In this document: positions 984 through 23,900 of the stretch, one piece after another
How the letters are laid out: each line of letters begins with the position of its first letter
How positions within the stretch are numbered: position 1 is the stretch's first letter
Virus record (IMG/VR): IMGVR_UViG_3300032182_000246
Location: 1 to 25,501 of that record
Length of the DNA stretch: 25,501 nt
Origin: a virus
Strand: one strand, 5' to 3'
The notes under the pieces: generated by a model
Database searches by the model: none
Told to the model about the DNA's origin: nothing
Seen by the model: the letters and a program-made list of their open reading frames with translations, nothing else
Made by a program: the position numbers and the translations under genes

Positions 984-1330
984 TATTCGTTAGTGGCAAT
1001 TTGTTGTCCTTCAGCATTGTATAGAGCATAGAAAATATAATTTTCTGGTGTAGTACAAGATGCTTGACTTTGTGGAAGATTGTCATCTAACCATTCCATC
1101 ATGATATCTACGTTATCACATTCAATGAAAACATGTTCAGACATCTTCAATGCTGTCCATAGATCACCTGGCAAGATGTCTTCATAGTTTGCCCACGATG
1201 CATTGATTGCATCAACATCTGAACTGGTGTTCCAACCAACAGACCTGAAGTAGACAACTGGTTTGTTAATCAACGCAGCATGTCTTTCAATGAAGTTGTC
1301 GAAATAATATACGTCGTAGTGTGTGTTCAT
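983..1330 (-). CDS. Hypothetical protein, 115 residues
   Basis: I do not recognise this protein. A longer reading is possible from a TTG at 1348, but the ATG at 1330 is preferred because it forms a 4-base ATGA overlap with the stop of the upstream oxygenase gene, the spacing used elsewhere in this cluster. The product is acidic and aromatic-rich (MNTHYDVYYFDNF, YFRSVGWNTS, MMEWLDDNLP), with no signal peptide, transmembrane segment or obvious metal-binding motif. It has two cysteines, in IECDN and ASCTTP. It is likely a soluble cytoplasmic protein. Co-transcription with the oxygenases is likely from the overlaps on both sides (4 bases before, 1 base after), but gives no specific function. Confidence 0.8.
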   Translation of the reverse strand: MNTHYDVYYFDNFIERHAALINKPVVYFRSVGWNTSSDVDAINASWANYEDILPGDLWTALKMSEHVFIECDNVDIMMEWLDDNLPQSQASCTTPENYIFYALYNAEGQQIATNE

Positions 1331-1833
1331 TTTACTAGTAGTTTCCAAGCAATAGTTATACGAAGTCCTGCAAATGATCTAGTGACAGGCTCTGCAGCGT
1401 GTCTCATCTTTCCTGGGAATAATACTGCTGTATTTGGTTTTGGTAACTGATAGTGATACTCACCATCTCCTAATTCAAATACTGTCTTTCCACCCCATTG
1501 AAGTTTCCAATCATCAATTGCATAAAAGAGAAATGTTCTTCCCCTGTCATCATACCAATCAACATGAAGATCTCCAGCAGTACCAAATGTATGCCCGTTA
1601 GCATACACATCATATAATTCGTACTCCTGTTGAGTTTTCTCCTGTATGATATTTAGAAGATACGTGCTGAAGAACTCATACTGTTTAAGATCCATCCTCC
1701 AGAAAGGATAACCTCTCCTAGGATCACCTGGATCAAATGACCCATGACCAAAATACCAATTGTCAGAGTTGACAGTATCTAATACTAACTTCAGTGTCTG
1801 TTTATCAAAGACATCATTAAATGTTTGTACCAT
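1327..1833 (-). CDS. 2OG-Fe(II) oxygenase, small form
   Basis: 168 residues, starting inside the end of the upstream oxygenase gene (17-base overlap), with AAGAGA just upstream of the ATG. The iron ligands are H90 and D92 in LHVDWYDD and H145 in KMRHAAEPVT; R158 in GLRITIAWK is the probable 2-oxoglutarate-binding arginine. Between them, WGGKTVFELGDGEYHYQLPK and NTAVLFPG match the jelly-roll core strands. The protein is shorter than most prolyl hydroxylase-like enzymes but the catalytic triad is intact, so it is probably active. The substrate is unknown. It and the 204-residue enzyme are adjacent and similarly organised, suggesting an old duplication or two enzymes acting on related substrates; the sequences are too far apart by eye to tell. 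Its TGA overlaps the next ATG. Confidence 0.9.
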   Translation of the reverse strand: MVQTFNDVFDKQTLKLVLDTVNSDNWYFGHGSFDPGDPRRGYPFWRMDLKQYEFFSTYLLNIIQEKTQQEYELYDVYANGHTFGTAGDLHVDWYDDRGRTFLFYAIDDWKLQWGGKTVFELGDGEYHYQLPKPNTAVLFPGKMRHAAEPVTRSFAGLRITIAWKLLVK

Positions 1834-2431
1834 ATTCTCTTAGCAAATTCAATCTAAGCTGTTCCAACCTCTCATCAGTAGATCCTTGAATACATCTACC
1901 ATACTCGATGATCCATGAGCGCATGAAACTATCTGTGACAATACTTTCTAACCAAGTGACAGCAACGTTTCGTGTCCCTTGTGTGACAGGATTTACCTTA
2001 TGCCACAATCCAGTAGAATATAGTATTGCTTTCCCTGCCTTTGGTTTGTGAACAGTCTCAGTATCACCCACCTTAATAACTAACTCACCACCTTCATAGT
2101 CATCATTTAAGAAGATACTCATGCTGTAGTGTGCATGAACTCCTGCAATAGGAAAATTATCTAAATGATATCCATATTTGTGTCCTACATTATATTTCAG
2201 AAAATATAATTGGGATATCTTATCAATAGGATATGTGCTATGCATCTTCTCATGCATCATCTGCTGGATAAAGACACAGGCGTCCTGATATTCTTTACCA
2301 TCAAAGCACATTAGGTTTTTCTTGATCTCTGATGGATTGCTAATACTACCATCAATATAGTTGAACTTCTTAGTCTCTTGATTTAAGAAGTTCAAATCAT
2401 CTTCACTCAGAAGATCAATCTCATATATCAT
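1817..2431 (-). CDS. 2OG-Fe(II) oxygenase (PKHD-type hydroxylase-like)
   Basis: 204 residues; its ATG overlaps the TGA of the preceding gene (ATGA), so it is probably read by translational coupling. The motif set is complete for the family: YGYHLDN gives H89-x-D91, a hydrophobic strand reads SMSIFLNDDYEGGELVI, and LWHKVNPVTQGTRNVAVTW gives the distal iron ligand H144 and the 2-oxoglutarate-binding R154. The H...V.PVT.G.R spacing is that of PKHD-type hydroxylases (the group containing PiuC) and prolyl 4-hydroxylase catalytic domains. The predicted reaction is oxygen- and 2-oxoglutarate-dependent hydroxylation in the cytoplasm of the infected cell; the substrate is not known. It is the second of three superfamily members here, clearly different in sequence from the 222-residue one. 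Its last 17 bases overlap the start of the next oxygenase gene. Confidence 0.92.
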   Translation of the reverse strand: MIYEIDLLSEDDLNFLNQETKKFNYIDGSISNPSEIKKNLMCFDGKEYQDACVFIQQMMHEKMHSTYPIDKISQLYFLKYNVGHKYGYHLDNFPIAGVHAHYSMSIFLNDDYEGGELVIKVGDTETVHKPKAGKAILYSTGLWHKVNPVTQGTRNVAVTWLESIVTDSFMRSWIIEYGRCIQGSTDERLEQLRLNLLREYGTNI

Positions 2432-3354
2432 TCAGCTACGTAATAAATGTTCCAATCGATTGGGATGATGTCATCTACTCTCAGTAGTCTCATCATTTCT
2501 AATACTTTAGCATCAATTTCTCTCTGTGTCGAGACCTTACCTTGAGCTCTTGCAAGGTTATACATTGTTTGCTCTCGCTGATTGCGGAAGTCAGTAGATG
2601 CTTCAATGTCATGATATACCCATTGATCAGGATCATTTGCATCTAGATATGCTGGTGGATTTTCTACACCATCATACATTTCTCTGTATACATTTGGGTC
2701 AACAGGAAATCTATACTCGTAAGTATACTTGAAATATGCTAATCCACTATCAAATTCATCAGGAGATTTTAATACTTGTGTGCGTACATGTGCTCTCCAT
2801 GCTTTCCACATTTCTTTCTCACCTTCCCAACTATCTTCTACATCAGGAAGAATTCTCCAGTCACTGAGTTCTAGTAAAGAGTTTTTCTGTCTCTTGAGTT
2901 TGAGATATCTCTTCTCATACAAAAGAACTTCTTTGTCAACCTCTTCTACCAAAGCTTCAACTTTCAAGTTCTTGACTTGATTTGCAACTTCTAAGAAGAT
3001 CTTAATTTGCTCATACAGTTGCTTTGCTTGATCAGCAGTACCATCAGAAAACTGATAAGTTGCAAAATACTGAGTATTTGTAGTAAAGTCAGTTTTTAAC
3101 TTTTTACGCTGACAGAAATATGTGCCATCATCATAATATTGGAAAAAGTCAAGTTGGTCCTTGGCACTATGCCAGAAAGGATCGATAGCAGCTGCTAAAA
3201 ATCTTTCACTCGCAGTATCATCGAAAGCAACTCTACGTCCACCAGGAGCAACTTTGATAGTACCAGTATCCTGGTCTAAGTAACGTGTTTCTTCGTTGAT
3301 AATCTTGTTAAGAAAATCAACTTCTAATAAAGGAGTTCTGATATTAAATGCCAT
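2428..3354 (-). CDS. Putative tail fibre assembly chaperone-like protein
   Basis: 308 residues, with AAGG 7 bases before the ATG. Residues about 107-158 are charged and helical (probable coiled coil, rich in K, E and L). They run into LLELSDWRILPD (S164, D165, W166) followed by KEMWKAWRAHVR. The order R...LL..SDW..LPD...W..WR..VR matches the conserved C-terminal motif of phage tail fibre assembly proteins and tail assembly chaperones (the family containing SDWTQLPD-type motifs), recalled from memory. Here the motif is central and is followed by about 120 further residues rich in D, Y and R, which is unusual; family members are typically shorter, with the motif near the end. No membrane segment is visible. 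A role in folding or trimerising the adjacent fibres would fit the context. It could alternatively be a structural protein that only shares this motif. It overlaps the next gene by 4 bases (ATGA). Confidence 0.85.
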   Translation of the reverse strand: MAFNIRTPLLEVDFLNKIINEETRYLDQDTGTIKVAPGGRRVAFDDTASERFLAAAIDPFWHSAKDQLDFFQYYDDGTYFCQRKKLKTDFTTNTQYFATYQFSDGTADQAKQLYEQIKIFLEVANQVKNLKVEALVEEVDKEVLLYEKRYLKLKRQKNSLLELSDWRILPDVEDSWEGEKEMWKAWRAHVRTQVLKSPDEFDSGLAYFKYTYEYRFPVDPNVYREMYDGVENPPAYLDANDPDQWVYHDIEASTDFRNQREQTMYNLARAQGKVSTQREIDAKVLEMMRLLRVDDIIPIDWNIYYVAE

Positions 3355-3363
3355 TGATCTACC

Positions 3364-4032
3364 TTATTGGTTTTTGATGTACCATCCTGTCAAGATATAT
3401 TTATCCTCAGTCAACACTGTATTTCCTTTATGAGTGTGAGTAAACCCTGCTGGCCAGACTACAACTGTACCCTTTGTTGGTCTAATTCTTCTTCTTTGAT
3501 ACAAAAACTCAGTCTCTGCCTCGCCTTCTGGCATGTCATTGAGGTAAATCATCCACACTAGTTCACGATTAGCATGAAGCATGTCTCCATCTTCATGGTG
3601 CCAAATGTTATATCCACCACCAGGAACAGTTTTTTGTACTTTAATGTCGTAACTAGTTACACTACTATGTTGTAGTGAGAAATATTCGGTCATGTAATGC
3701 TGAACACATGACTTCAATACTTGATTAACATACCTTGCAAATGTAATGTTATGGTAGTTAAGGAGAAATGCTGTATCTTTTCTCTTCAGGGGACCACCAT
3801 ACATGCTTTGCGATTCAATGACTTTCATCTCATCCATATGATGACCATCATATGAAGCTCCATGCTCGAAAATATCCGCGCAAAAAGTCAAGATATCATC
3901 GCATAACGGTGCTGGCATAAAGTTTTCCCAGACACCAATAAAGTCTTTGAATTCAGACTTTGTTATGTTTTCGTCGAGCATCAGTTCAATTGGTCTAAAA
4001 CCAGGAATAGTATTATCTTGCTCTTTCACCAT
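3364..4032 (-). CDS. 2OG-Fe(II) oxygenase (prolyl 4-hydroxylase-like)
   Basis: 222 residues, starting 2 bases after the 1195-residue fibre gene, with an AAGG ribosome site 10 bases upstream. It shows the double-stranded beta-helix signature of the 2-oxoglutarate/Fe(II) dioxygenase superfamily: WHHEDGD supplies H146-x-D148, and the distal iron ligand is most likely H201 in FTHTHKGNT (H199 is a second candidate). K211, in EDKYILTGW, is placed where the family binds the 2-oxoglutarate carboxylate. These enzymes use oxygen, 2-oxoglutarate and ferrous iron to hydroxylate protein side chains or small molecules. The substrate is unknown. The position directly behind tail-fibre genes makes a virion protein a reasonable candidate, but that is inference. 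Two more members of the superfamily lie downstream. The stop is 9 bases from the next gene. Confidence 0.9.
   Translation of the reverse strand: MVKEQDNTIPGFRPIELMLDENITKSEFKDFIGVWENFMPAPLCDDILTFCADIFEHGASYDGHHMDEMKVIESQSMYGGPLKRKDTAFLLNYHNITFARYVNQVLKSCVQHYMTEYFSLQHSSVTSYDIKVQKTVPGGGYNIWHHEDGDMLHANRELVWMIYLNDMPEGEAETEFLYQRRRIRPTKGTVVVWPAGFTHTHKGNTVLTEDKYILTGWYIKNQ
3398..3405 (-). promoter_or_regulatory. Candidate T4-type late promoter (GATAAATA) inside the 222-residue oxygenase gene
   Basis: The same octamer, GATAAATA, occurs on the minus strand near the 3' end of the oxygenase gene, 43 bases before the ATG at 3354. It could start a transcript for the chaperone-like gene and the five genes after it. 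Because it lies in coding sequence (codons around ...EDKYIL), chance occurrence is more likely than for the intergenic copy. Confidence 0.3.
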
Positions 4033-7657: not shown

Positions 7658-10600
7658 CTATGGATTTAAGTTCCTGACATCAATCCAACTACCATCGAGA
7701 TTTTTCTGAACTTTAATTGGATGATCAGATAAGATCTCAACAGGGACATCAATGTCATTAATCAGGAGCATTGTATCAAGAGGTCCATCTTCAGGAGATA
7801 TAACAGGTTCCTCATTTTTAATTAAACCAACACTATCAGGAATGAGAATATTATCTGGTGTCTGGTCAATATTCACGAGAGTAATTACATTTACAATTTC
7901 TGTTCCTGCTTCTCCTTCAGCAGTATATCTAAATGTAATTGAGGATGGACCAAGATTATTCCAGAAACCTGACATATCAAAATCAACCTCTTCATTAGCA
8001 ACTTCATTAAAATCAGGTGCTGTTGGGTTCAATTCAAAACTAGTTGGATGTGGAAGAGTATCATCTGTAAATACAGAAGTCGGACTGGTTGTTCCATCGA
8101 GATAGGTAAAGAACACTTCAAGTTTCATACCAATATCAGAGTATCTGGTAGTATACGAAGATGTAATAGTTGCAGTATTATAATCAACAACTCCTGGAGC
8201 ATCTGCTTCCAAGAAAACAAGTTGAGAAACCCTAATAGTTGCACACTTTGTATCAGAAGTTCCACCAGGACCCTCAACATAACCACAATAAGTAGTGGTG
8301 TCTGCTGGATTGACAATTGCCTGTGATGTGAGTAAGGTATTAGCTAAATTACCACTAGTCCACGTCAATGTTTCACCAGAACCAGCTGGTGTTGTTGACC
8401 AGTTGAGTTGAGTATTAACACCAGGCTTTCTTATAGCTTCTTGTTTATTTGGATCACCCAATAACCAAATATTGAATACTGGTTTTGGAATAAGAGTAAC
8501 TGTTACAGATCTAGTTTCAGTAGTACCAGTTGTACCCTGAATTGTCATGGTAAACGTAGTCGTTTCAGTAATCGTTAGATCATCATGACCAGTAAACGAC
8601 AGGGATTGACCATTATTGTAATTTGAAATTGTAACCTGAGTAACTTCACCAAATGCAACCCAAGTTAATCGGAATGATTCACCTTCCTTAACTTGTGACT
8701 TATCACTTGTAATAAATCCAGATGGTGGTAGATCTTTATTGTGACCTGGGATCCAACGCTCACCACTGTCACTAGTCTCAAGAACAATAATAATACCAGC
8801 ATTAGAACATGCAGTTTCAAATGCAGCGTAAGATCTCGCTACATCAACCTCTCGCATAGATCCAGAGATATCCAACCACACAGAAACATATGATCCTGCA
8901 GGAACATTTTGTAAGTTACAAATACTAAACCAATCAGAGATATTTACGGTTTCATCATCTCTGTTTACCTGCACAGTATATGCATATGGATCATTCAAGA
9001 AATTAGATGGTCTATTCAGTCTATCAAGTCCATACCGTGGATTACTCTGTGGAGGGTCTGTTCTAAATGTAGCCTGTAGTAGATAGAACGTTCTGTCTGG
9101 ATAGTTACTTCTAAATGATGCCCAATCATTCGAGTGTGTAGTTACTGATGGAGATGATTCGTCAATGATCGAAATACATGTGACAAGATTAGTATAATCA
9201 ATATCAGTGTGAGCAGAAGTCTTAACAATATTTGGATTTGCTTCTACTACTTGAAGATCTTCAGGTATGCTTCTAGTAGAAACACTTTCTTCTTCAACTT
9301 CAACTACTTCAACTATTTCTTCATCCTCTTCAATGCTACCACCAACAGGGATAGCAGGAGCTCCAAATGACCTAATTTTTTGCCAAGTATTCTGATCATT
9401 ATTTACAGAAACCAAAATTGGATTTGTTGCTTTAATTTCAACAGGGATGTCAACATCATCAACTAAGAGGAGTTCTGATAAAATTTCAGTCTCAGGAGAT
9501 AAGATAGGTTCCTCCTCTTTAATTTTACCAATACTATCGGGAATTAAAATATTATCAGGTGTTTCATCAATGTTAACTAGAACATCCTGACTTGGAATTG
9601 TTTCCGATCCACCATCTCCAGAAAGTTCTAGAGCAAATCTAATAATAGATGGTCCTCTGTCAACCCATGTTGGAGTATATGTGTAAGTTCCACTAGTATC
9701 ATTGGCAGAACCTTGACCAGCTTCTGCTGAATCTGCTAATGGTAAATCTACATTTGTGACATTATTGACACCATCCAAATCAATTGTAGTAATTCTAAGC
9801 CTTACCTTTGTGTTAGCATACTTTGCTTCCCATGGAACATCAAAAGATACATCACCGTAGTTAATCACAGATGGAACAGTAAACTCACCTTCAGGTGGTT
9901 CGTAGACAACAATAGTAACACTATAGTTTGGACTGGTTCCACCAAGACCACTAACTCTTAGTGTATAAGTTGTAGTAGTTTGAGGTTGAACAATAGTTGA
10001 TGATGATAAGAGGGTATTGCTAATATTTCCTTCAATCCACACAAGTGTATCAGCATCACCACTAGTAACCCAAGTTAAAGTTACCTGTTCACCACTCTTG
10101 ATAAAATATTTGTTAGCAGTAAAGTTAACTGTTGGTGGGATATAGACAACAACTTGTCTTTCTACTGTTGTACATCCACCCTCTCCACATACAGTATATG
10201 TGTAAGTTGTAGTTTGATTAGGACATACCTGCTGACTACCACTGAACCCTGGATTACTAGTAAAATTAGAGCTGGCACTATTTCTATTACCACTAGAACT
10301 CCACGATAAAGTAACACATTGTCCTTGTGTAATACCATTACCAGAAGAATTCAACGAAGCTCCTGGTTTTGCTGGTTGACTTGGACCATTTACTCTCCAC
10401 GACATTGCACATGGATTGCTATCAAAGTTTTCACTACCACTAGTGTTGTAAAAACTCCAAGATACGGTTACAGTATTACCTTGATTATAGTTTCTTGAGG
10501 TAGAATTACCATTTTTATTAAATCCACTAGCACTAGTACAAGTACCATTTAGACATACAGTTCCTACGTTATCAACTGCTGCTGTAATTGTGTAAGTTCC

Positions 10601-12763
10601 AGAATAAGAAGCAGTAAATTGATATGATCCAGATGCGGTTCCCAAATTATTAGCATTTGCACTAGTATCAAATGGGTGTGTAGCATAATCATTCATAAAC
10701 CCAGACCATGCTGGGTGATCATATGCAGAATAACCAGGAATATTCAAACTGGTTGCATAAGTGACCAGTGTTTTTACACTCTCTGGATCTGCTTCTACAA
10801 CTTGAAAATCGCTAGATCGTTCTACAAGTTCTTCTTCCTGTACAAATTGTACAGCTTCAAATGGTCCTTCTATCTCAACTATGTCTTCATCCTCTTCTAT
10901 AGATTGAGTTTGAGGTATAGCTGGAGCAATTCCAGTATCTCTTACTTGAAGCCATTCTCCTTGATTATTAATTCTAACCAGAATTTTATTTCCAGAACTG
11001 ACTTCTACAGGAATATCAATGTCAGTAATCTGATAAAGATCAGTAAGAGTTGGTGGTGCTACCTCTTCTGATGGAGATCTTACATCTGGATCAGATTTAA
11101 TTACACCAGTGGTATCGTCAATAAGAATTTGATCTGGTGTTTCATCAATTATAACAAATGTAGTGTAATATCCACCATCATCAGGAAATTGTTCTGTGCC
11201 ACCATCTCCCTCAACACGCAATCTGAATTGAATATATCTTGGACCTTTATCGTTCCAACTAGGTGTATACGAAAGAGTTTCTGTGCGTGAATAATCAACA
11301 GGATCTGAATTTGCTAAAGCTGTGTTGGTGACTTCTAAATCGATTGTCTCTACAACTGTTGAAACATTATCAACATCGAGATAGATTACATCTAATGTGT
11401 TTGCAATGTTAGCATAGTTTACAGTATATTCAATGTCAAAAGTCTCTACACCGTAATTAACACTAACTGGAACATCTACAGAACCTGTTGGAAGTTCATA
11501 TACATTAATTGTCAGACTATAGAAATCACTAAATCCACCAAGCCCGTTTGCTCTAGCAGTATATGTAGTAGTTTCTTGTGGACATACCGTTTCTGTACTA
11601 GTAAGAAGAGTATTAGAAAGATTACCTTCAGTCCAAACAAATGTATCAGCATCTCCAACAGTTTGCCATGAGAAAGTTACACATTCTCCTTTCTTGATAG
11701 AAACAGTATATGGATCACTTGCATCATCTGGTCCTACTGAGATATTATAGAATATAATTCTTGGTTTGTAAACAACATACAGTTCAATATATCCTTCATC
11801 ACCATCATTTGCTGCAGTTACACCAGCAATACCATCAGTTTGTCCACCACTTCCTCTTACAATATCATGACTAGTTCCTAAACCATATGTTTCTGAAGCT
11901 TCAAACTGTGCTCTAGTAATTGTTCCTGAAATAGCAGCACCACCGCCGCCACCCATACCAATAACACCAACTTTAAGTCCAGTTGTGTTAATTGTAAAAC
12001 AACGAATGTAACCATTAGCACCATTTCCATTTTGGAACCAAATATCGATACCATTGGCAGTTTTATTAGCAGTACCATTTAGACCATATGTTCTTTGTCC
12101 AATTCCTCCACCTGCTGCCTGATCACAGATTAGATTAGCTGGAATGGTGAAAGTCCAATTTGAATTAATATAAGGTGTAACAAATCTCAGCGAATAATAC
12201 TTACCATTTGAAGGGGTAGTACCATATATACCATCTGGTGCCGATGGGTTTTCATAATCCAGAGTAATATCAGTAGTATTTCCAGACTTTGTAAAGTCAT
12301 GTGTATTAGATTCATTATCAAATACGTGCGTCATGGACGACGTGTATGTTCTAGCTCCAGTAGATCCATCACCACCATTGCCGCGTATAGTGTTACCTAA
12401 TTTACCTCCTGCTCCACCATCGTTGTCAACAATATTATCAAGTGTTGGAAATGCATATGAAGCTGAATTGCTACCATCTACCATGGTGAGACTGACACCA
12501 CGAGAACCCCACCCATAATCATCAGTGGCTATGCCACCCTTACCAGCATCAACTAAATCCTGTTCTCCCTTAAGACCGCCTCCAGCAGTTAATCCTAAAA
12601 AAGAAGTCGCTGTACCATCACCACCAGAAGTTCTGACAAACGGATCAACATTATCATTTACATTTTCTCCTGCTCCGCCACCACCCCAGATTTTGAATTC
12701 AATATATGCTGTATCAGGATCAATAGTAAACGATCCAGAGTTAAGGACTAGAGTATCTGCCAT
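7658..12763 (-). CDS. Large modular adhesin-like virion protein: glycine-rich head, Ig-like repeats, MIDAS-like cassette
   Basis: 1701 residues, preceded by a strong ribosome site (GGAGGAAGGA) directly before the ATG. Residues 1 to about 330 are glycine-rich (IEFKIWGGGGAG, IGMGGGGGAA), like glycine-rich phage fibre domains. After that come Ig/PKD-like modules of the pattern LxW...TTTYT, five in all, at about residues 355-420, 791-874, 874-953, 1348-1431 and 1444-1516. Three units repeat the order A (Ig-like), B (second beta domain ending near an IDETPDxILI motif) and C (a segment ending in DIPVE and a W). Two different cassettes sit between units: one near residues 654-791 (PA14-like in feel) and one near 1181-1348 that contains DISGSM at D1298, S1300 and S1302, matching a von Willebrand A MIDAS start. 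Acidic linkers (SIEEDEDIVEIE, SIEEDEEIVEVV) precede the cassettes. It is probably a host- or surface-binding appendage protein; the function is inferred from architecture and fibre neighbours. Confidence 0.88.
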   Translation of the reverse strand: MADTLVLNSGSFTIDPDTAYIEFKIWGGGGAGENVNDNVDPFVRTSGGDGTATSFLGLTAGGGLKGEQDLVDAGKGGIATDDYGWGSRGVSLTMVDGSNSASYAFPTLDNIVDNDGGAGGKLGNTIRGNGGDGSTGARTYTSSMTHVFDNESNTHDFTKSGNTTDITLDYENPSAPDGIYGTTPSNGKYYSLRFVTPYINSNWTFTIPANLICDQAAGGGIGQRTYGLNGTANKTANGIDIWFQNGNGANGYIRCFTINTTGLKVGVIGMGGGGGAAISGTITRAQFEASETYGLGTSHDIVRGSGGQTDGIAGVTAANDGDEGYIELYVVYKPRIIFYNISVGPDDASDPYTVSIKKGECVTFSWQTVGDADTFVWTEGNLSNTLLTSTETVCPQETTTYTARANGLGGFSDFYSLTINVYELPTGSVDVPVSVNYGVETFDIEYTVNYANIANTLDVIYLDVDNVSTVVETIDLEVTNTALANSDPVDYSRTETLSYTPSWNDKGPRYIQFRLRVEGDGGTEQFPDDGGYYTTFVIIDETPDQILIDDTTGVIKSDPDVRSPSEEVAPPTLTDLYQITDIDIPVEVSSGNKILVRINNQGEWLQVRDTGIAPAIPQTQSIEEDEDIVEIEGPFEAVQFVQEEELVERSSDFQVVEADPESVKTLVTYATSLNIPGYSAYDHPAWSGFMNDYATHPFDTSANANNLGTASGSYQFTASYSGTYTITAAVDNVGTVCLNGTCTSASGFNKNGNSTSRNYNQGNTVTVSWSFYNTSGSENFDSNPCAMSWRVNGPSQPAKPGASLNSSGNGITQGQCVTLSWSSSGNRNSASSNFTSNPGFSGSQQVCPNQTTTYTYTVCGEGGCTTVERQVVVYIPPTVNFTANKYFIKSGEQVTLTWVTSGDADTLVWIEGNISNTLLSSSTIVQPQTTTTYTLRVSGLGGTSPNYSVTIVVYEPPEGEFTVPSVINYGDVSFDVPWEAKYANTKVRLRITTIDLDGVNNVTNVDLPLADSAEAGQGSANDTSGTYTYTPTWVDRGPSIIRFALELSGDGGSETIPSQDVLVNIDETPDNILIPDSIGKIKEEEPILSPETEILSELLLVDDVDIPVEIKATNPILVSVNNDQNTWQKIRSFGAPAIPVGGSIEEDEEIVEVVEVEEESVSTRSIPEDLQVVEANPNIVKTSAHTDIDYTNLVTCISIIDESSPSVTTHSNDWASFRSNYPDRTFYLLQATFRTDPPQSNPRYGLDRLNRPSNFLNDPYAYTVQVNRDDETVNISDWFSICNLQNVPAGSYVSVWLDISGSMREVDVARSYAAFETACSNAGIIIVLETSDSGERWIPGHNKDLPPSGFITSDKSQVKEGESFRLTWVAFGEVTQVTISNYNNGQSLSFTGHDDLTITETTTFTMTIQGTTGTTETRSVTVTLIPKPVFNIWLLGDPNKQEAIRKPGVNTQLNWSTTPAGSGETLTWTSGNLANTLLTSQAIVNPADTTTYCGYVEGPGGTSDTKCATIRVSQLVFLEADAPGVVDYNTATITSSYTTRYSDIGMKLEVFFTYLDGTTSPTSVFTDDTLPHPTSFELNPTAPDFNEVANEEVDFDMSGFWNNLGPSSITFRYTAEGEAGTEIVNVITLVNIDQTPDNILIPDSVGLIKNEEPVISPEDGPLDTMLLINDIDVPVEILSDHPIKVQKNLDGSWIDVRNLNP
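7661..8430 (-). repeat. A-B-C unit, copy 3, of the 1701-residue protein
   Basis: Copy 3 encodes LNWSTTPAGSGETLTWTSGN and TTTYCGYVEGPGG (A), APGVVDYNTATITSSY (B), then IDQTPDNILIPDSVGLIKNE, DIDVPVEILS and WIDVRNLNP (C). The protein ends right after the C segment, so copy 3 lacks the acidic linker and a following cassette. Confidence 0.8.
9330..10110 (-). repeat. A-B-C unit, copy 2, of the 1701-residue protein
   Basis: Copy 2 encodes LTWVTSGDADTLVWIEGNIS and TTTYTLRVSGLGG (A), VPSVINYGDVSFDVPW (B), then IDETPDNILIPDSIGKIKEE, DVDIPVEIKA and WQKIRS (C). It is followed by the acidic linker SIEEDEEIVEVV and the cassette carrying the MIDAS-like motif. Confidence 0.8.
10905..11715 (-). repeat. A-B-C unit, copy 1, of the 1701-residue protein
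   Basis: This copy encodes an Ig-like A module (FSWQTVGDADTFVWTEGNLS, then TTTYTARANGLGG), a B module starting near VPVSVNYGVETFDIEY, and a C segment (IDETPDQILIDDTTGVIKSD, then DIDIPVEVSS and WLQVRD). It is about 810 bases long. Copies 2 and 3 share the same order with substituted residues, for example SNTLLTS, SNTLLSS and ANTLLTS. Confidence 0.8.
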
Positions 12764-14992: not shown

Positions 14993-17900
14993 TTAAACGT
15001 TGATTAGATACCAACCAGTACGAGAGGAAGGAACAGATTGACCGCTTTCGCCTTCAACCAAGCTTCCTGCGTAAACTAGAGCAAATGCAGCGTATGGTGT
15101 TTGTACAACCAATTCACCACCATTGTGTGTTGCATATGAAGATGCAGCAATTCCAGTTAAGAGAGTTGATCCTGTGTTAGAACCATCATTCATAACTTTT
15201 TGGTTTGTTGCTGCTCTTACAACTAGTGATAAGTTGTAAGTCAATGCCCCACCAATATCTATAATCCTAATCATATCGCCCATTTGAGCGTTGCCTGGTA
15301 GTTTCACAATTGTGTTACCACCAACGTTGAGGAAGTAGTTTGTATTGACTTCTGCAGTAACAACAGAATCTGCATTGTACTTCCAGAGGCGACCACCAGA
15401 GTTAGAGAAGTAATTCGCTTGACCAGCGACCATAACAGAACCATTATTTTCAACCTTAAAGATTTCATTGCCTGCAATGTCCTTAATGCTGAATTCTTGG
15501 TCAACCTGAGATCTTCCAGCGCCTTCCTGATACTTAAGATTGATACCACCGTTGATATCAAGGGATCCTCCAAAGTAGGAGATACCAGTACCTAGAGCGG
15601 ATAGAGCACCGTAAACAGTTAGGTTGCCATTTGATCCGTTAAAGTCAAGTTTTGGATCAGATAGATCTGCAACACCATCATTATCAACTCCAAAGAACTG
15701 CATACTACCAGTGCTGTAGATGCTACCAGTTGCAGTATCGACCTGGAAGGTAACGGCTTCAGTTACATCAGAGTTTCCACCATTTGTTAGAGTTAGGAAC
15801 TCTGTGTTGCCCTGCTCAGTTACTTTGAACAGTTCAGATGGTTGTGCTGCAAATGTGGTTCCTTTCAGGGTGATCGTGTCATTAGTGGTCAACTTACCAG
15901 TGGTAGTTGTGTCACCAGTTGCAGCGTCAACAGTGAAGCGGTTAAATCCTGCACCAGCGTTGATGTCACCGAAGATGAATGTATCACCTGTTGTAGATTC
16001 TACACGGAAGGTGTCATTTGCACCACTTGGATCACCAGTATTAACGATTAGAGACTGTGGTGAGGTGCTGATTAGTTCCTTGACAGAAACAAATTCGCTC
16101 TTACTTAGTCTGAGGAAATCTCTAGTGGAGAGGCTTCCGCCAAACTCAGCAACACCAATTCTTACATCAGCGTTACCATTACCAATTCCAGATAGTGGTT
16201 CATCTAGTACGCCATCAGAGTTGAGGTCAGAACCAGTGATGAAGGATGCATTAGACTGCTTGATAAACTTAGCAATGTAAGTTTCATCAGGGTGATTATT
16301 ATAGATGCCTGTTCCTTCTTGACCACGAGAAACGATTAGTCTGTAACCATTTGTATCTTGAGGATTGACAACGTTTGCAATACCTTCGATACGAACAATC
16401 TCACTCTCTGCTTCGTTTCTTAGTCCAGTGATTTGGTTTTCACCAGATCCAACAACATCAGGTGATAGTGGATTTGCTCTATCAATGAAGAGTAGATCAC
16501 CACGGGAGAAGTCAGTGATTGCTGGTTCTGTGATTGGTAGATAGTATAGAGTACCAGTGTCAACAACACCAGCAACAATGAATGTCAGTGTACCAGCAGT
16601 TCCAGCAGATCCAGTCTCAGTACCACCAAGATCTTCAGGTTGAATGATAATCTGGTCGCCAATTGCATATCCTTCACCAGGGCTTTCAATGTTAACTTCA
16701 ATGGTCTTGTCAAATCTAACAAGAACAGTAACAGTTGCACCAGCACCAACACCATCGGTAGTTGTTGGGACGAAAGGATATGTAGCAGGTGGTCTAAAGT
16801 CACCACCGTTGTTGACGATAGTATCGAATGTGGAGATTGCACCACCAGCAACTAGGTAAGATGTACCACCCCATGGTCCTTGACCAGGAGTATCAATGTA
16901 TCTTCCAGTGTCCTGATACTGATAGAAGTCGATGTTAGAGTTCTCTACGCTACCGACAACATGAGGAACGATAGTAGTGTTAAATCTACCTCTTTCAATC
17001 TCAATAATACCAGCGTTTAGACCACCGTCTAGTCTGATGTTACCCTCAACGATTGCAGAAGCAAGAACGTTCAGAGTGTTTCTGATGGTTGTTGTACCAC
17101 CAGTGGATCCCATTTCAAATGTGGTTGCGTTTGTACCAAGCTTAACGGTGTTAGTTAAGTCACCGTCAAATGCACGGACAGATCTAGTTCTAGTATAAAT
17201 TCTAGATTCACTAGTTCCTTCACCTTCACCAGAACCAAACTCAACTTCTTTTGAGTAAATGTCAGTAAAGAATGTCTTGATGTTAGTGACAGAATCTGTT
17301 GTGCTTCTAGCATTGTATGCACCACCAAAGTTCAATCTACAAATACCAGTGTTGATATTTTGTACTGTTGCAAAATCAACCGTAGCATTTTGTGAGTTGC
17401 TGTGAACTCTCAATGTAGTGGTAGTTGCAGTAGTACCAATCTTGAGGTTTTGCTGAGTGGTAGTAGTACCTAGGTTAATTTCTTGTCCTAGGGTTGTGTT
17501 AGCAGCAATGTTAAGACGGTCTGCTACACCGAACATGTTAACTCTTACTGCATTAGCAGGAGCCAGAGCAAAGTCAGTGTTGGTTGTAGTGATGTCACCA
17601 CCATTAACCTCAAGGTCACCAGTGATCTCTAGATTTTCATGAATTCTAGCATCACCAATAACAACGAACGTCTTATTGAGTTCCTTGAAAGGATTGATGT
17701 TATCTTCAACCTTAGTATTGATACCAACTCTACCACCATTGGTGGTCATTACTCTCAATACAGAAGTATCATCTGGATCAGAACTGTCTCCACCAACTAG
17801 GAGTGCATTGTCTTGTTCTGTTTCAGCCTTAACAATGGTAGTTTCGTTAAGATAGTTCTCAATGGTCTTACCACTGATGAATGCAGTACCAACAACATCG

Positions 17901-20900
17901 AGGTTTGCTCTAGGATCTGTTTCATCAGAAACAAATTGGTTCTGTGAAGCAATATGAGCAGAACGTGCTACGGTGTTAACACCAAGTTTGAACTGACCCC
18001 AAGTGTCTGTATTGGTTCTGAGTGCTTCTGCACCTAGTACACCAAATTCTTTCCAGATAGACTTGGAGATCTCAACTAGAGGAACAGCAAGACCCTCTGG
18101 ACGTGGTGGTTGAGCAACAACTTGTGTTGCCCAGTTCTTAACAGCTAAATCCTGTGTTGTAGCAGCCTGGAAGTGAACATAGTTGTTATCAGGATCAAAC
18201 GCATCGTCTGGGGGACTGTATACAGTCCAGATACCATTGAGATCAATATTAGGCCAGTAATTAGAGATCTTAATCTGACTTGCTGCGTCAATACCAACAC
18301 CTTCAAGGTCTTTGTTAGCAATGTTCTGTTGTAAGAAGCTATCATACCATGTGATCTTGACGACGTTAGTACCATCAAACTCGATAGTTGCGATGTTAGC
18401 GTTGTTAACGTCCTGGAAGAAGTTAGAGAATACCCAACCAAGAGAACCAGACTTACCAATTTCTAGACCCTTAAGTAGAATGTCACCTGGCTTAGCGAGT
18501 ACACCATTGTAATCTGTAAACTGGTTAACATAAACTCTGTCACCACCTTCTGCAACCAACGCTCCATTGTTTGGAGAGATGTTGGAAGGAACACCAGCAT
18601 ACTCATGTGTCAGGACTTTATAATCTTGTCCATCTCTTCTACCAGTGATACCAAATACAGCAGCATCTACTCTGTTCTTGCTGATGCGAATATCACCCTT
18701 AGTTCTAGGTCTGAAGTTGTCATTGTCGAGACTTTCGTCTTGCTGTTCATTCGTTACAGGATCGATTGAAGTTACGTTAGAACGGATGATTAGACAATCA
18801 CGAACTTCAGTTAGATCATTGTCTTGTACGCTGATGACAATTGGAGAACTGAATGTGTTTGGTAGATCACCATCACCACCAACAACTGTAATGTTCTGGT
18901 TGAACGTTACAGGTGTATTGAAGGTGGTAACGAGGTTACCGAGATCATCATCCTCGTCCTCACTATCGTTCAATACAGCGGCTTCTAGGAACGTCTCTTC
19001 GCCTGTAATAGCGTTGATCTTACGGTTACCAATATAGAGGTCACCGTTGGAGTTCAGACCTGTGTAGAAGACGATACCACCGTCTTGTTTCTTACTTTGG
19101 GCATAGAAGTCCTCAGTAGGTGTTAAGACGATCTCCTGACGTGCTGGGAGACCTGTGGAGTAGTTACCAGGACCGAAACCAAGGTATTCAAACGTGTGGT
19201 TACCAGCACGAGCGATAGATGGTCTTCTAAGTTCAACGTAGTAACGCTGATCAGAAACAATTGTGCTATCACCAGAGATTGAGATAGTACGATCTTCTGA
19301 ACCAGAAGTTGCATTACCTACCTGTGCTCTAATCTGGTTCTCACCAGTATACTCATAATCTCTAAATGCTGGTTGAGAAGTTAGATCATCGACAAGTTCT
19401 CTAGTTACAGATCCCTTGTAGTCGTTAGTAGTAACAAGACCATGAATATAGTTGTTAGCAGCAGAGTATGTTGCTGGTGGATCTAGTAGATTTTCAACAA
19501 CAGAAATCTCTTCAGAACTTGTACCTGCTTTCTGGAACCATAGAGGATCGTTCTTGTAGTTCAGAGGATACAAGCTGCTAACTGGTTGAGAGAACTTGAA
19601 CTTCTTAAAGTTCTCAGTTACACCAGCACCAGTTGGGAATGGAGAAATGTTACCGCGTAGGCAAGAGAGATAGTAAATACCATCTTGCTGACCTGCAATT
19701 CTACGCTGTAGTGTCTCGTAGCTGAAGACATAGAATGTATCTTCGATGACACCTGCATCCTCAACACTATCAACATAGTATTCGTTACCAGCATCGTCCT
19801 GGATAGTATCACCAGGAGTGATGGTGTAAACGTTAGCGCCGTTTTGCTTGTAATAATACTCAGGATAATTTTTTCTGATTAGTGTTTTTAGAGGTAGCGA
19901 TTTGCCAAAATCTTGGTCGGCAAGCATGTCTGCGAAGACAACTGTGCCACCACCTTGATCCTGTGTGAACTGAACGTTCTGATAGTCACTGAACTCTAGT
20001 TTTCCACCACGAACATTCTTAAGGATGAGGTAATGCTCACCACCAATAGAGAAATACTGGTGGATATTAGCAAGACCCGAAGAATATCCGTTCCAATATA
20101 CACGGCTTTCTTCTGTTTGCTCAGTCTTGTTAACAATCCAATCACCACCCTGAGGTGCGTTAATCTTAACTGTTGTGAATGTCTCGTTCTTAAGACCAGA
20201 GAAATCAACAGCGTTGATTGTATGGTCAAAGACTGTTAGTTCTAGATATTCCTTGAATGGATCTAGAGGATCTGCAACCTTAGAAGCACTCTGGATTGTT
20301 GCCTGAATACCAGAATTGAACTTAGCAAACTTAGCATATTGAATGCCATCGTTGGTAAGATCCTTTCTGTATGGATCATATGTTAGATCCTCATCTAGTC
20401 CAGCAGTAGCAAACTCTAGAGCATCCATGCCGATCTTTTCAGCAGCTTGGACTGGGTTTCTAAAGTCTGCAGTGTAGACGTTACCAGCAACAGGCTTGAG
20501 TAGAACCTTCTGTGGTACTAACTTACGAGTGTCGTCAGTTCTCGTCTTGATGACGAAACCATTGATAGGATCTCTTGCATTCTCAAGATACTTAGGAATG
20601 ACATAACGTAGTTTGTATGTTCTATCATCTGCTTCACGCTTATCTTCAATACGAGTGAACCACATATCAGTGGATCTGTTTCTATCAGCAAGGTCTTGCT
20701 GATTAACTCTCCAGATAATGTTCTGCTCATAAGTTGTAGCAGGTACGTTATCAGTATCAGCCTCGTTCTTACAATTGACGAACCACTTACCAGTGTCAGC
20801 AACAGTGTTAGTGAACCCTGGATCAAAGCGAACTGGTGATCTACGCTTGTTAGCGTACATCTTGAATGAATAATCACCAGGAACAAATCTTACAGGATCG

Positions 20901-23900
20901 TTCTCGTTAATTGCATCAGAGTGAGAAGTGTAGATAGTAACAGTCTTCTCATTCTCATATCTTACATAGAACTCACTGTTGTAGTTAAGTCTACCAAAGT
21001 TAGAGTTGATGGCGTCGGTAGTTGTGATGAATGAATCTTCTGCTTGGTTAGTAGATCCTGCACCCTCAGCACCAGCAATAGAAGGTAACTGACTACCTGG
21101 ATTTGCTCTGAAGAATACTCTCTGAGGTTCAACAGAAGCAAATGGTACGTCAAAGATGTGAGAAACATCAGTCTGAATACCATTGGTAACAGATGAACTT
21201 AAAGTACAGTTGTAGCTGTGTAGATCATACTTAAGATCAAGAACAAACTGATAGAGATCAATCTCAACATCCTTGTCAATGCTATCAGATTCAGATGAAT
21301 AGATGTAGATACCTGCTGCAGCATTCTCAGGAGAAGTTGCAAGCATCAGTTTTGTCTGTGCAGCAGAATCAAATACACCTGCGGTATCACCAAAGTTAGT
21401 TGGTTGTGTTCTTCTACCAGGAGCAATTACATAGTAGGTTGTGTTGGTGTCGAAACCATTAGGTAGTCTGACGAGACGCTTATCAACATCAACATATTCT
21501 CTCTTGGTTAGATCGAAGCGAGGACGTGGTACAAGTCTAACAGGTGTTCCAGTCTCCAATTGGTGTGGGTTGGTGCTTCCAAGTCCATCAGTATTGATGG
21601 TGAATACTGTTGCTCTCTTAGTAAATTGACCAGGATCAGCAGTAGGTTCTACTCTAGTTACTGTGCCAGGACCACTCTGGATGATATCAATGATGTCACC
21701 AACCAAGCTATCGATTGTAGCCTTGATGCTTGCACACTCAGGATAACTTTCGTCCTGAATAACTTCAGGGTTGGTTGCTCTTGCTCCAACCTGAGATAGA
21801 GTTGGTAGAGTATCTGCCCATGTACCTTCTGGGAAGGTAAAGTATAGGCTAGTTGTTTCAGTTTGATTAGCAAGTCTCAACTCACCAAGATTGAGTTTAG
21901 ATCCTTTAAATCCAAGTTCAATGTTCTGGTTGTCAACAATTCTCTTGATGTATGTTTCATCAGAAATGTTGTCTTCTAGTTGGACAGCATCAGGTTGCAG
22001 GAGACCATTTACATATGGAATTCTACCACCAGTCTCATCATATTCAGCAACCTTCATACCAATCAAGAGACCCTTAGTATCTCCAACGTTAACGATTGCA
22101 CTACCAGCTTCAGTGTCACAACCTTGAATTAGAACGTCGAAGTTTCTCATGGCAGCAATTGCCATGTCTCTTACATATTCCCAAGCGTCTACAGTTTCAA
22201 CTGCTTCGCCATCGATATAGTCTAATGTGTTACCAACATAGTATGCTTCACCAGCTTGGATGCTGTTGATGTTACCACCAAAACGTAGGTCATTAACAAC
22301 AGCGTCAACAATGTAAGAAACGTCACGGTAGCACTTAGATGCTGTTGGATCATTAGTAAATCCACCCTCTTCAATAGCAGGAAGATCTGCAAGGTTGCTA
22401 CCGATAACTGCATCGCTAGCAATATCAAATAGAGTTTCAATAGAACCACGAACGTTAGCACAATCCCAATCACCATGGGTGAGAGGAGGAAGATTTGCTA
22501 GAGTTGCGAAACCAGAGTTACCCTGACCAGCAATAGCGTCACTGATAATTCCTACTAATGTATCGATTGTTTGTAGAACATCAGAGCAATTTCCGAGTTG
22601 ATATCCAACCTCACCAGAAGCTCCAATGATTGATTGTGGTTGCTCAGGTACAGATCTTGCAGCGACTGGAAGACTACCAGCACCAGTTGCGCTAGTACCA
22701 ATAGCATCAATAACCATGTCCATGAGTGTAGTGAATGCATCAACTGCACCCTGGCATGTTGGGCTTTCCCAATCTTGAACGATTGTAAGATCAATAAACT
22801 GAACGAGATCGAAGTTTGAACCAGTTGGTGGAACTTGCTGGTTTCTGATTACATCAATACCAACTGTTTTAACAAACTCAAATACCTTTCTTGCAGCATC
22901 ACGCTCGTAGTCAAGGAAGGTTGTTTGTAGTGTGCCGTAAGTAACACAGTCTTCTACAGCAGATACGAAATTGTGCTCATAAACATCAGCAGGATCACTA
23001 GCACCAACGTTAACTGTAATGGTGTTAGTATCTGCAGCAACAATCTGCAACCATGTGTTAGCAGCAGGGTCAGTAGCACGAGGATATGCTGTTGCTGTCT
23101 GATAGTTGTCAAGAGCACAGGTGAATGTCAATCCACCAGTAGCAATCTTGATATACTGATTAGCAACCATTCCGTGGTTAGGAATAGTAAGGATAGACAA
23201 ACCAGTAGCTGCATCATATGTTGCAGTTGTTGGAGTGTATCTCTTTGGATTTCTACCACCAAAGATGTTAGTTACATAAACTTCTGCAGCATCATATGCC
23301 TTGTGGTTACCGCCAAACTTGACGTTCCACATGATTTCTTCGAGAACTGCATAAACATCATCGAGACAATCTTGCTCAGATGTACCAGCTCTTGGTGTCC
23401 AAGTAATACCATCGTTAGCGAAGTCAAGGACCATTCTCTCATATGCTTCCTTGGCAAGCCATTCTTTGTTTCTAATGACCAAATCATGTGCATCAGCAAA
23501 TAGATCGCCAACGATTACAGGATCGCCAGTCTGATCTAGAGTAATGTCACGATCTTGACCATAGAGTAGATTGTTGATTGCCTGGTTACAAGCATCAGCA
23601 ACTCTCTTGAATGCAGTGATAGATTGCTCCTTCTCTTCGTCAACACCATTAGCAATCAGGTTGTTGTTCTTATCGAAGTATGCTCTGGTAGCAGCAATAG
23701 TGTACTCGTTACCACCAAACCAGAGATCCTGTGCAATAGCATCAACTAGGTGACCGATATCTCTACGGCACTTGCTTTCACCTGCCTCTAGTCCTCTTGT
23801 AGTTGGAGGAACATAATTTGCATTGTTTACGTCCTCAAGAGAATCTAGATTGCCATCATTGAGAGCCTGAGTAACAATGGTTGTCAGTGTAGAGATAGCA

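Follow-up and report, generated by a model that had tools for sequence, protein, structure and literature searches.

A MIDAS motif in a surface-contact setting has a close parallel in Bdellovibrio, where Bd0875 is a MIDAS adhesin whose motif is needed for function (PMC11003981). The domain described here shares with Bd0875-type adhesins the D-x-S-x-S motif, an extra acidic residue, and a putative surface-contact setting, but those are true vWA domains on cells, whereas ours is a short, non-canonical domain on a virion, with a putative function. Tailed viruses also encode MIDAS-type domains, for example in CobT-like proteins (PMC8651126) and in the MoxR-vWA co-chaperones of jumbo phages (PMC7824862); these, however, are canonical vWA domains in chelatase or chaperone partners, outside tail appendages. 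Our literature search found no description of a vWA or MIDAS-like domain in a cyanophage tail.

Measured against the vWA domain with MIDAS (Pfam PF00092 / PF13519), the type of site used by animal adhesion proteins, the present domain is alike in having a strand that ends in DxSGSM and is followed by a helix and a strand, an extra conserved acid after another strand, and an alpha/beta fold. It is unlike in having five predicted strands and two long helices, in that the DxSxS strand comes late, and in being sometimes split over two genes. The protein that carries it, P0001, belongs to PHROG families 29022, 2155, and 9770 (cyanophage virion structural proteins) and to T4-like GC 737, for which the sources used describe no domain, site, or mechanism. 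The main finding is a conserved MIDAS-like site, probably metal-binding, on a non-canonical and split-capable alpha/beta domain of marine T4-like phage virions.

Gene block and unit architecture

The window, by which we mean the whole stretch of DNA analyzed (25.5 kb), is an IMG/VR virus fragment from a T4-like cyanophage. Its gene order (a giant ORF of at least 3362 aa, short tail fibre, tail collar, P0001, short tail fibre, 2OG-Fe(II) oxygenase, and tail assembly chaperone) matches that of Kyanoviridae (T4-like cyanophage) genomes such as S-PM2, Syn1, S-RIM44, and ACG-2014j, and bears out an earlier sequence-only reading of this DNA that had assigned the motif to a phage appendage protein. 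After the tail-fibre block, on the minus strand at 1327-4032, lie three 2OG-Fe(II) oxygenase-like genes (P0006, P0009, and P0010), with the tail assembly chaperone P0005 between them.

P0001 (Table 1) matches phrog_9770, phrog_2155, and phrog_29022, each a 'virion structural protein', and corresponds to three separate genes in S-RIM44, S-RIM32, and Sf-CH11; in these phages and in S-PM2, separate genes of 465-611 aa fill the block in place of one fusion. By BLASTP, the C-terminal part is common to units 1-3 of P0001 and the N-terminal heads differ. The MIDAS-like domain forms the N-terminus in stand-alone relatives and follows an acidic linker in the fused P0001. Its earlier description as a cassette between Ig-like units therefore suits the fused protein and fails for the stand-alone relatives, in which the domain is an N-terminal head; the Ig-like label for P0001 comes from weak, sub-threshold Pfam matches. 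The stretch in which the motif had been noticed, 8700-9225, corresponds to residues 1180-1354.

Table 1. Features of P0001 and its MIDAS-like domain, in window coordinates
Feature	Coordinates	Strand	Basis
P0001, 1701-aa ORF, three fused paralogous units	7658..12763	-	ORF and translation; PHROG and BLASTP matches
Unit 1, residues 1-610, glycine-rich N-terminal head	10934..12763	-	BLASTP to ACG-2014i ABY41_gp033 and S-RIM32 BJD26_gp222
Unit 2, residues 671-1133, different N-terminal head	9365..10753	-	BLASTP to Sf-CH11 SfCH11_31 and S-RIM44 Np420711_036
Acidic linker, unit 2 to unit 3, about residues 1143-1179	9227..9337	-	Read from translation
Unit 3, residues 1180-1701, N-terminal head is the MIDAS-like domain	7661..9226	-	BLASTP to ACG-2014i ABY41_gp031 (1177-1699) and S-PM2 p223
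MIDAS-like alpha/beta domain, residues 1193-1341	8741..9187	-	Homologue alignments A1, A3, A4; AlphaFold2 pLDDT 88 and 94
D1201-E1202, after strand A	9158..9163	-	Invariant in A4; kept or lost with DxSxS
R1268-D1269, after strand C	8957..8962	-	Invariant in A4; R lost in 15/16 eroded pairs
D1298-I-S1300-G-S1302-M1303, MIDAS-like DxSGSM after strand D	8855..8872	-	DxSGS in 59/59 complete distinct homologues
E1335, after strand E	8759..8761	-	Invariant in A4; missing only from the most eroded pairs

Predicted fold and resemblance to vWA domains

AlphaFold2 models were obtained for the window domain (41 sequences; pLDDT 88.1, pTM 0.85) and for L118, a diverged homologue 42% identical to it in alignment A4 (pLDDT 94.0, pTM 0.90), and the order of elements is the same in both: strand A, helix, strand B, strand C, strand D, helix, and strand E. 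As modeled, residues 1193-1341 would fold into a compact domain of two halves, an N-half of strand A-helix-strand B and a C-half of strand C-strand D-helix-strand E. In the model of the window domain, the strand-helix-strand that had been guessed around the motif spans 1292-1298 (strand, VSVWLDI), 1309-1321 (helix), and 1325-1331 (strand, IIIVLET). In both models, each invariant polar group comes directly after a predicted strand, with DE after A, RD after C, DxSxS after D, and E after E. A binding or active site at the C-terminal edge of a Rossmann-like sheet would be expected to show polar groups placed at strand ends in this way.

Foldseek searches of BFVD returned, at E 0.001 or better, homologous phage proteins only (from ACG-2014i and ACG-2014j, and one from P-SSM2 that matched over 70 columns), and neither model had a PDB match at that threshold. 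Nor did PDB sequence searches give a significant match, whether the query was the domain, the whole protein, or the N-half. In Pfam, neither P0001 nor 18 domain homologues matched VWA, and the C-halves of 21 relatives yielded one chance-level VWA_2 match (E 0.19). In profile comparisons, the C-half aligns to the strand1-DxSGSM-helix1-strand2 of a YfbK-family vWA profile with an HHalign probability of 81-93%, and six PDB profiles match it at E 10 or better. Four of these six are vWA chains, aligned in the same register, with no match significant by itself (E 0.13-1.2). Masking the motif abolished the HHalign match to vWA. With the motif kept and the other columns shuffled, the mean score was 30.7 for the whole domain, against 39.3 observed (60 shuffles, maximum 39.1), and 30.7 for the C-half, against 43.6 observed (100 shuffles, maximum 45.8). 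From these controls it follows that the resemblance to vWA beyond the motif is modest, and that most of the signal is the motif itself.

The N-half showed no similarity to vWA by HHalign, including searches against permuted and doubled vWA profiles. By eye, its strand-DE-helix-strand looks like the strand4-acid-helix-strand5 of vWA, and the order of elements fits a circular permutation, so that the domain may possibly be a circularly permuted vWA. What is very unlikely is a canonical vWA domain from a cellular source. The DxSGSM is flanked by the expected strand and helix, and the C-half profile does match vWA chains, but the domain has no Pfam VWA match, its five predicted strands come in a different order and have no PDB fold match, and a scan of genome contigs found no cellular homologue. 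The canonical fold is six-stranded with the DxSxS strand first, whereas here that strand is the fourth of five, and we rejected this candidate with both fold and profile searches against it.

The sequence-only reading had seen the start of a vWA domain, short or rearranged. The DxSxS that closes a strand and is followed by helix and strand survives from that description, as do the words 'short or rearranged'; membership of the vWA family does not, given the lack of a significant Pfam or fold match. Structure prediction, which the same reading had proposed as a check and for which a fold unrelated to vWA was to count against it, gave a divided answer, namely a related alpha/beta fold class yet no vWA match. 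Any kinship of the domain with vWA, possibly through circular permutation, would be tentative, and we do not class the domain as vWA.

Conservation and joint erosion of the site

Since bare DxSxS occurs twice in P0001, at residues 96 and 1298, the motif by itself means little. To avoid circularity, homologues for the measure of conservation were picked by the N-half pattern [QT]C[IV]S[VI]IDE only, with the motif ignored, and a scan that had been pattern-selected on DISGSM was left out. Of the complete distinct homologues selected in this way, 58/59 carry D[IVTNA]SGSM and the remaining one DTSGSL. DxSGS is thus invariant, and the poor conservation in close homologues that had been named as evidence against the motif is clearly not what was found. 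D1298, S1300, and S1302 do lie where they had been read, in YVSVWLDISGSM, with codons within 8858-8872, and the two strings quoted in that reading, YVSVWLDISGSM and AGIIIVLETSDSGE, are both present in the P0001 translation. The homologues come from 35 phage records, all of marine cyanophages or related marine viruses, and from many IMG/VR contigs; the scan of genome contigs found them in no cellular sequence.

Other residues accompany the motif. The invariant positions of A4 include C1196, D1201, E1202, R1268, D1269, and E1335 (window numbering), and D1201, E1202, D1269, and E1335 are conserved and coupled with DxSGS. In the classical MIDAS, a threonine from loop 2 completes the site. Neither A3 nor A4 contains an invariant threonine that could take its place; T118 of A3, which is nearly invariant, comes after DxSxS on the same helix start. 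It is hardly credible that DxSxS is a chance motif without function. Bare DxSxS is common by chance, as the second copy in the same ORF illustrates, but among the unbiased homologues DxSGS never changes even though its second position takes I, V, T, N, or A, and its fate is tied to that of DE, RD, and E at other points of the domain, on separate genes as well as on one. The conservation data contradict the chance reading.

The coupling across genes comes from other marine T4-like phages, in which the domain is split, the N-half ending one virion gene and the C-half ending a downstream gene. A scan with the C-half of a Marine virus AG-345-F15 protein gave 71 further loci. At 19 C-half loci the N-half ended the gene directly before, which overlaps the C-half gene; at three it lay about 1.5 kb upstream of the C-half ORF; and at two (L319 and L320) it was in the same 1085-aa ORF, about 710 residues away. 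Because many loci had no N-half within the flank examined, 20 records were searched whole, and each of the 20 had a single N-half match, which in one record was incomplete at the end of the contig. At least one gene separates the two half-bearing genes in L323-L327. In L324 (546-1583), the N-half ends a 345-aa tail-tube homologue (phrog_45), in its extra C-terminal region, and the C-half ends a 551-aa protein that is followed by a UvsY-like gene; in L323, the N-half ends a phrog_3304 protein. Besides an ordinary tail-tube gene, five records (G005, G007, G008, G012, and G017) show another phrog_45 match, a weaker one, close to the N-half.

Two side observations concern these loci. The insert of about 710 residues in L319 (1-3255) carries repeated WTSVAWSP / TSPDGITW-type motifs and has a beta-propeller-like look. 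In addition, the head of unit 2 of P0001 (window 9365-10753, minus strand, residues 671-800) resembles, by eye, a region of another virion protein in L323 (3-1226); residues 54-172 of that L323 protein match phrog_773 'major head protein'.

The intact set DE / RD / D-S-S / E is present in 85 of the 101 distinct N/C pairs (75 contiguous and 10 split, with E unreadable in two truncated pairs). The remaining 16, all split, are changed in both halves, and discordant pairs number zero. Their states are graded, from DG / RD / DST / E in L275, through DD / ID / DS- / E in the L033 type and PD / SD / DG- / E in the P-SSM2 type, to L256-L260 and L316, in which nearly all of the residues are lost. In a tree built without the motif columns, 15/16 eroded pairs form one clade, with L275 elsewhere on weak support; the erosion events are therefore few in independent terms, and we claim no P value. 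Even so, site residues on separate genes are kept or lost together, as one shared site predicts. This joint retention and loss supports the view that the eight residues from both halves (DE, RD, DxSxS, and E) would make up one composite site, which probably binds metal. A virion domain that is split between two genes, and whose site parts persist or decay together, lends itself to the study of how domains split and composite sites evolve.

Possible host contact, assembly, or catalysis

The MIDAS-like domain probably serves in host attachment or assembly, as a kind of module that has no earlier description, and it is best read as a virion module that can be swapped and that carries a MIDAS-like site for putative host contact. 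The whole explanation, a composite MIDAS-like metal site on an exposed, swappable tail head for host contact, has in our estimate a probability of about 45%. The topology of the domain suggests that D1201 E1202, R1268 D1269, D1298xS1300xS1302, and E1335, at C-terminal strand ends, form one pocket, which would probably bind a divalent metal in a MIDAS-like manner. The domain would sit as a head, exposed on a modular protein of the tail fibre or baseplate decoration, and an acidic group on the surface of the cyanobacterium would complete the coordination of the bound metal; relatives would build the same pocket from two polypeptides. Were host contact metal-mediated in this way, a phage could gain, lose, or swap the module as hosts change.

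It is tempting, if tentative, to speculate further about an undescribed family of MIDAS-like virion domains, possibly circularly permuted vWA, that come on a single chain, with an insert of about 700 aa, or split over two structural genes, one of them a tail-tube paralogue. The site would form only when two virion proteins meet, and might thereby signal or trigger tail assembly or host contact. In some relatives the N-half is carried by a tail-tube paralogue, which suits a structural role no less than it suits host binding, and the tail-tube fusion favours a structural part for the split forms. A rival reading is an assembly clasp, a metal-bound or purely structural domain whose halves would lock two virion proteins together, or stabilize one fibre protein, without direct host contact. 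It is supported by the many relatives in which the two halves end two virion genes, one such gene being a second tail-tube paralogue, and by the constant pairing of the halves. In the window and in S-PM2-type proteins, however, the domain is a terminal or head module on a single chain and therefore needs no clasp, and some split pairs have an eroded site yet keep both halves, so that the site is not required for pairing. On balance, we regard this assembly role as unlikely, though worth serious attention. A catalytic site, in which the conserved acids and serines act on a host surface polysaccharide or lipid, is improbable: the topology is Rossmann-like with acidic residues at strand ends, and the best PDB fold matches are mostly enzymes, none significant, but there is no significant similarity to any enzyme family or fold, and the DxSGSM arrangement is the binding-site motif of vWA and, to our knowledge, not a known catalytic motif.

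For putative host contact through a swappable head the support is indirect: the place of the gene in the tail block, the differing heads over a shared C-terminal part, and natural variants. Two ACG-2014j isolates, L024 (NC_062735.1) and L328 (NC_026926.1), differ by about 3.8 kb in this gene, with a 1861-aa protein that includes the MIDAS-like unit in the one and a 582-aa protein without it in the other; the unit is present in isolate US23 and missing from US103, and the flanking DNA is 92-94% identical. Heads that vary over a conserved base and come and go between near relatives are traits of a receptor-binding or adhesin module, and this protein shows them. T4-like cyanophages are abundant ocean viruses whose receptor-binding parts are largely unassigned, and the domain is a concrete candidate with eight named residues, accompanied by natural sibling phages in which it is present or absent.

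The block also has a record of change under host pressure, as d218, d219, d220, and d224 of S-PM2d are reported to mutate during coevolution with Synechococcus WH7803 (PMC9910659). The domain-bearing gene of S-PM2d is d221, of which these four are named neighbours in the block; d221 is not among the genes named in the main text of that paper. The giant ORF of the window, on the minus strand at 14993-25501 and open at the contig end, occupies the position of the 3779-aa S-PM2d218.
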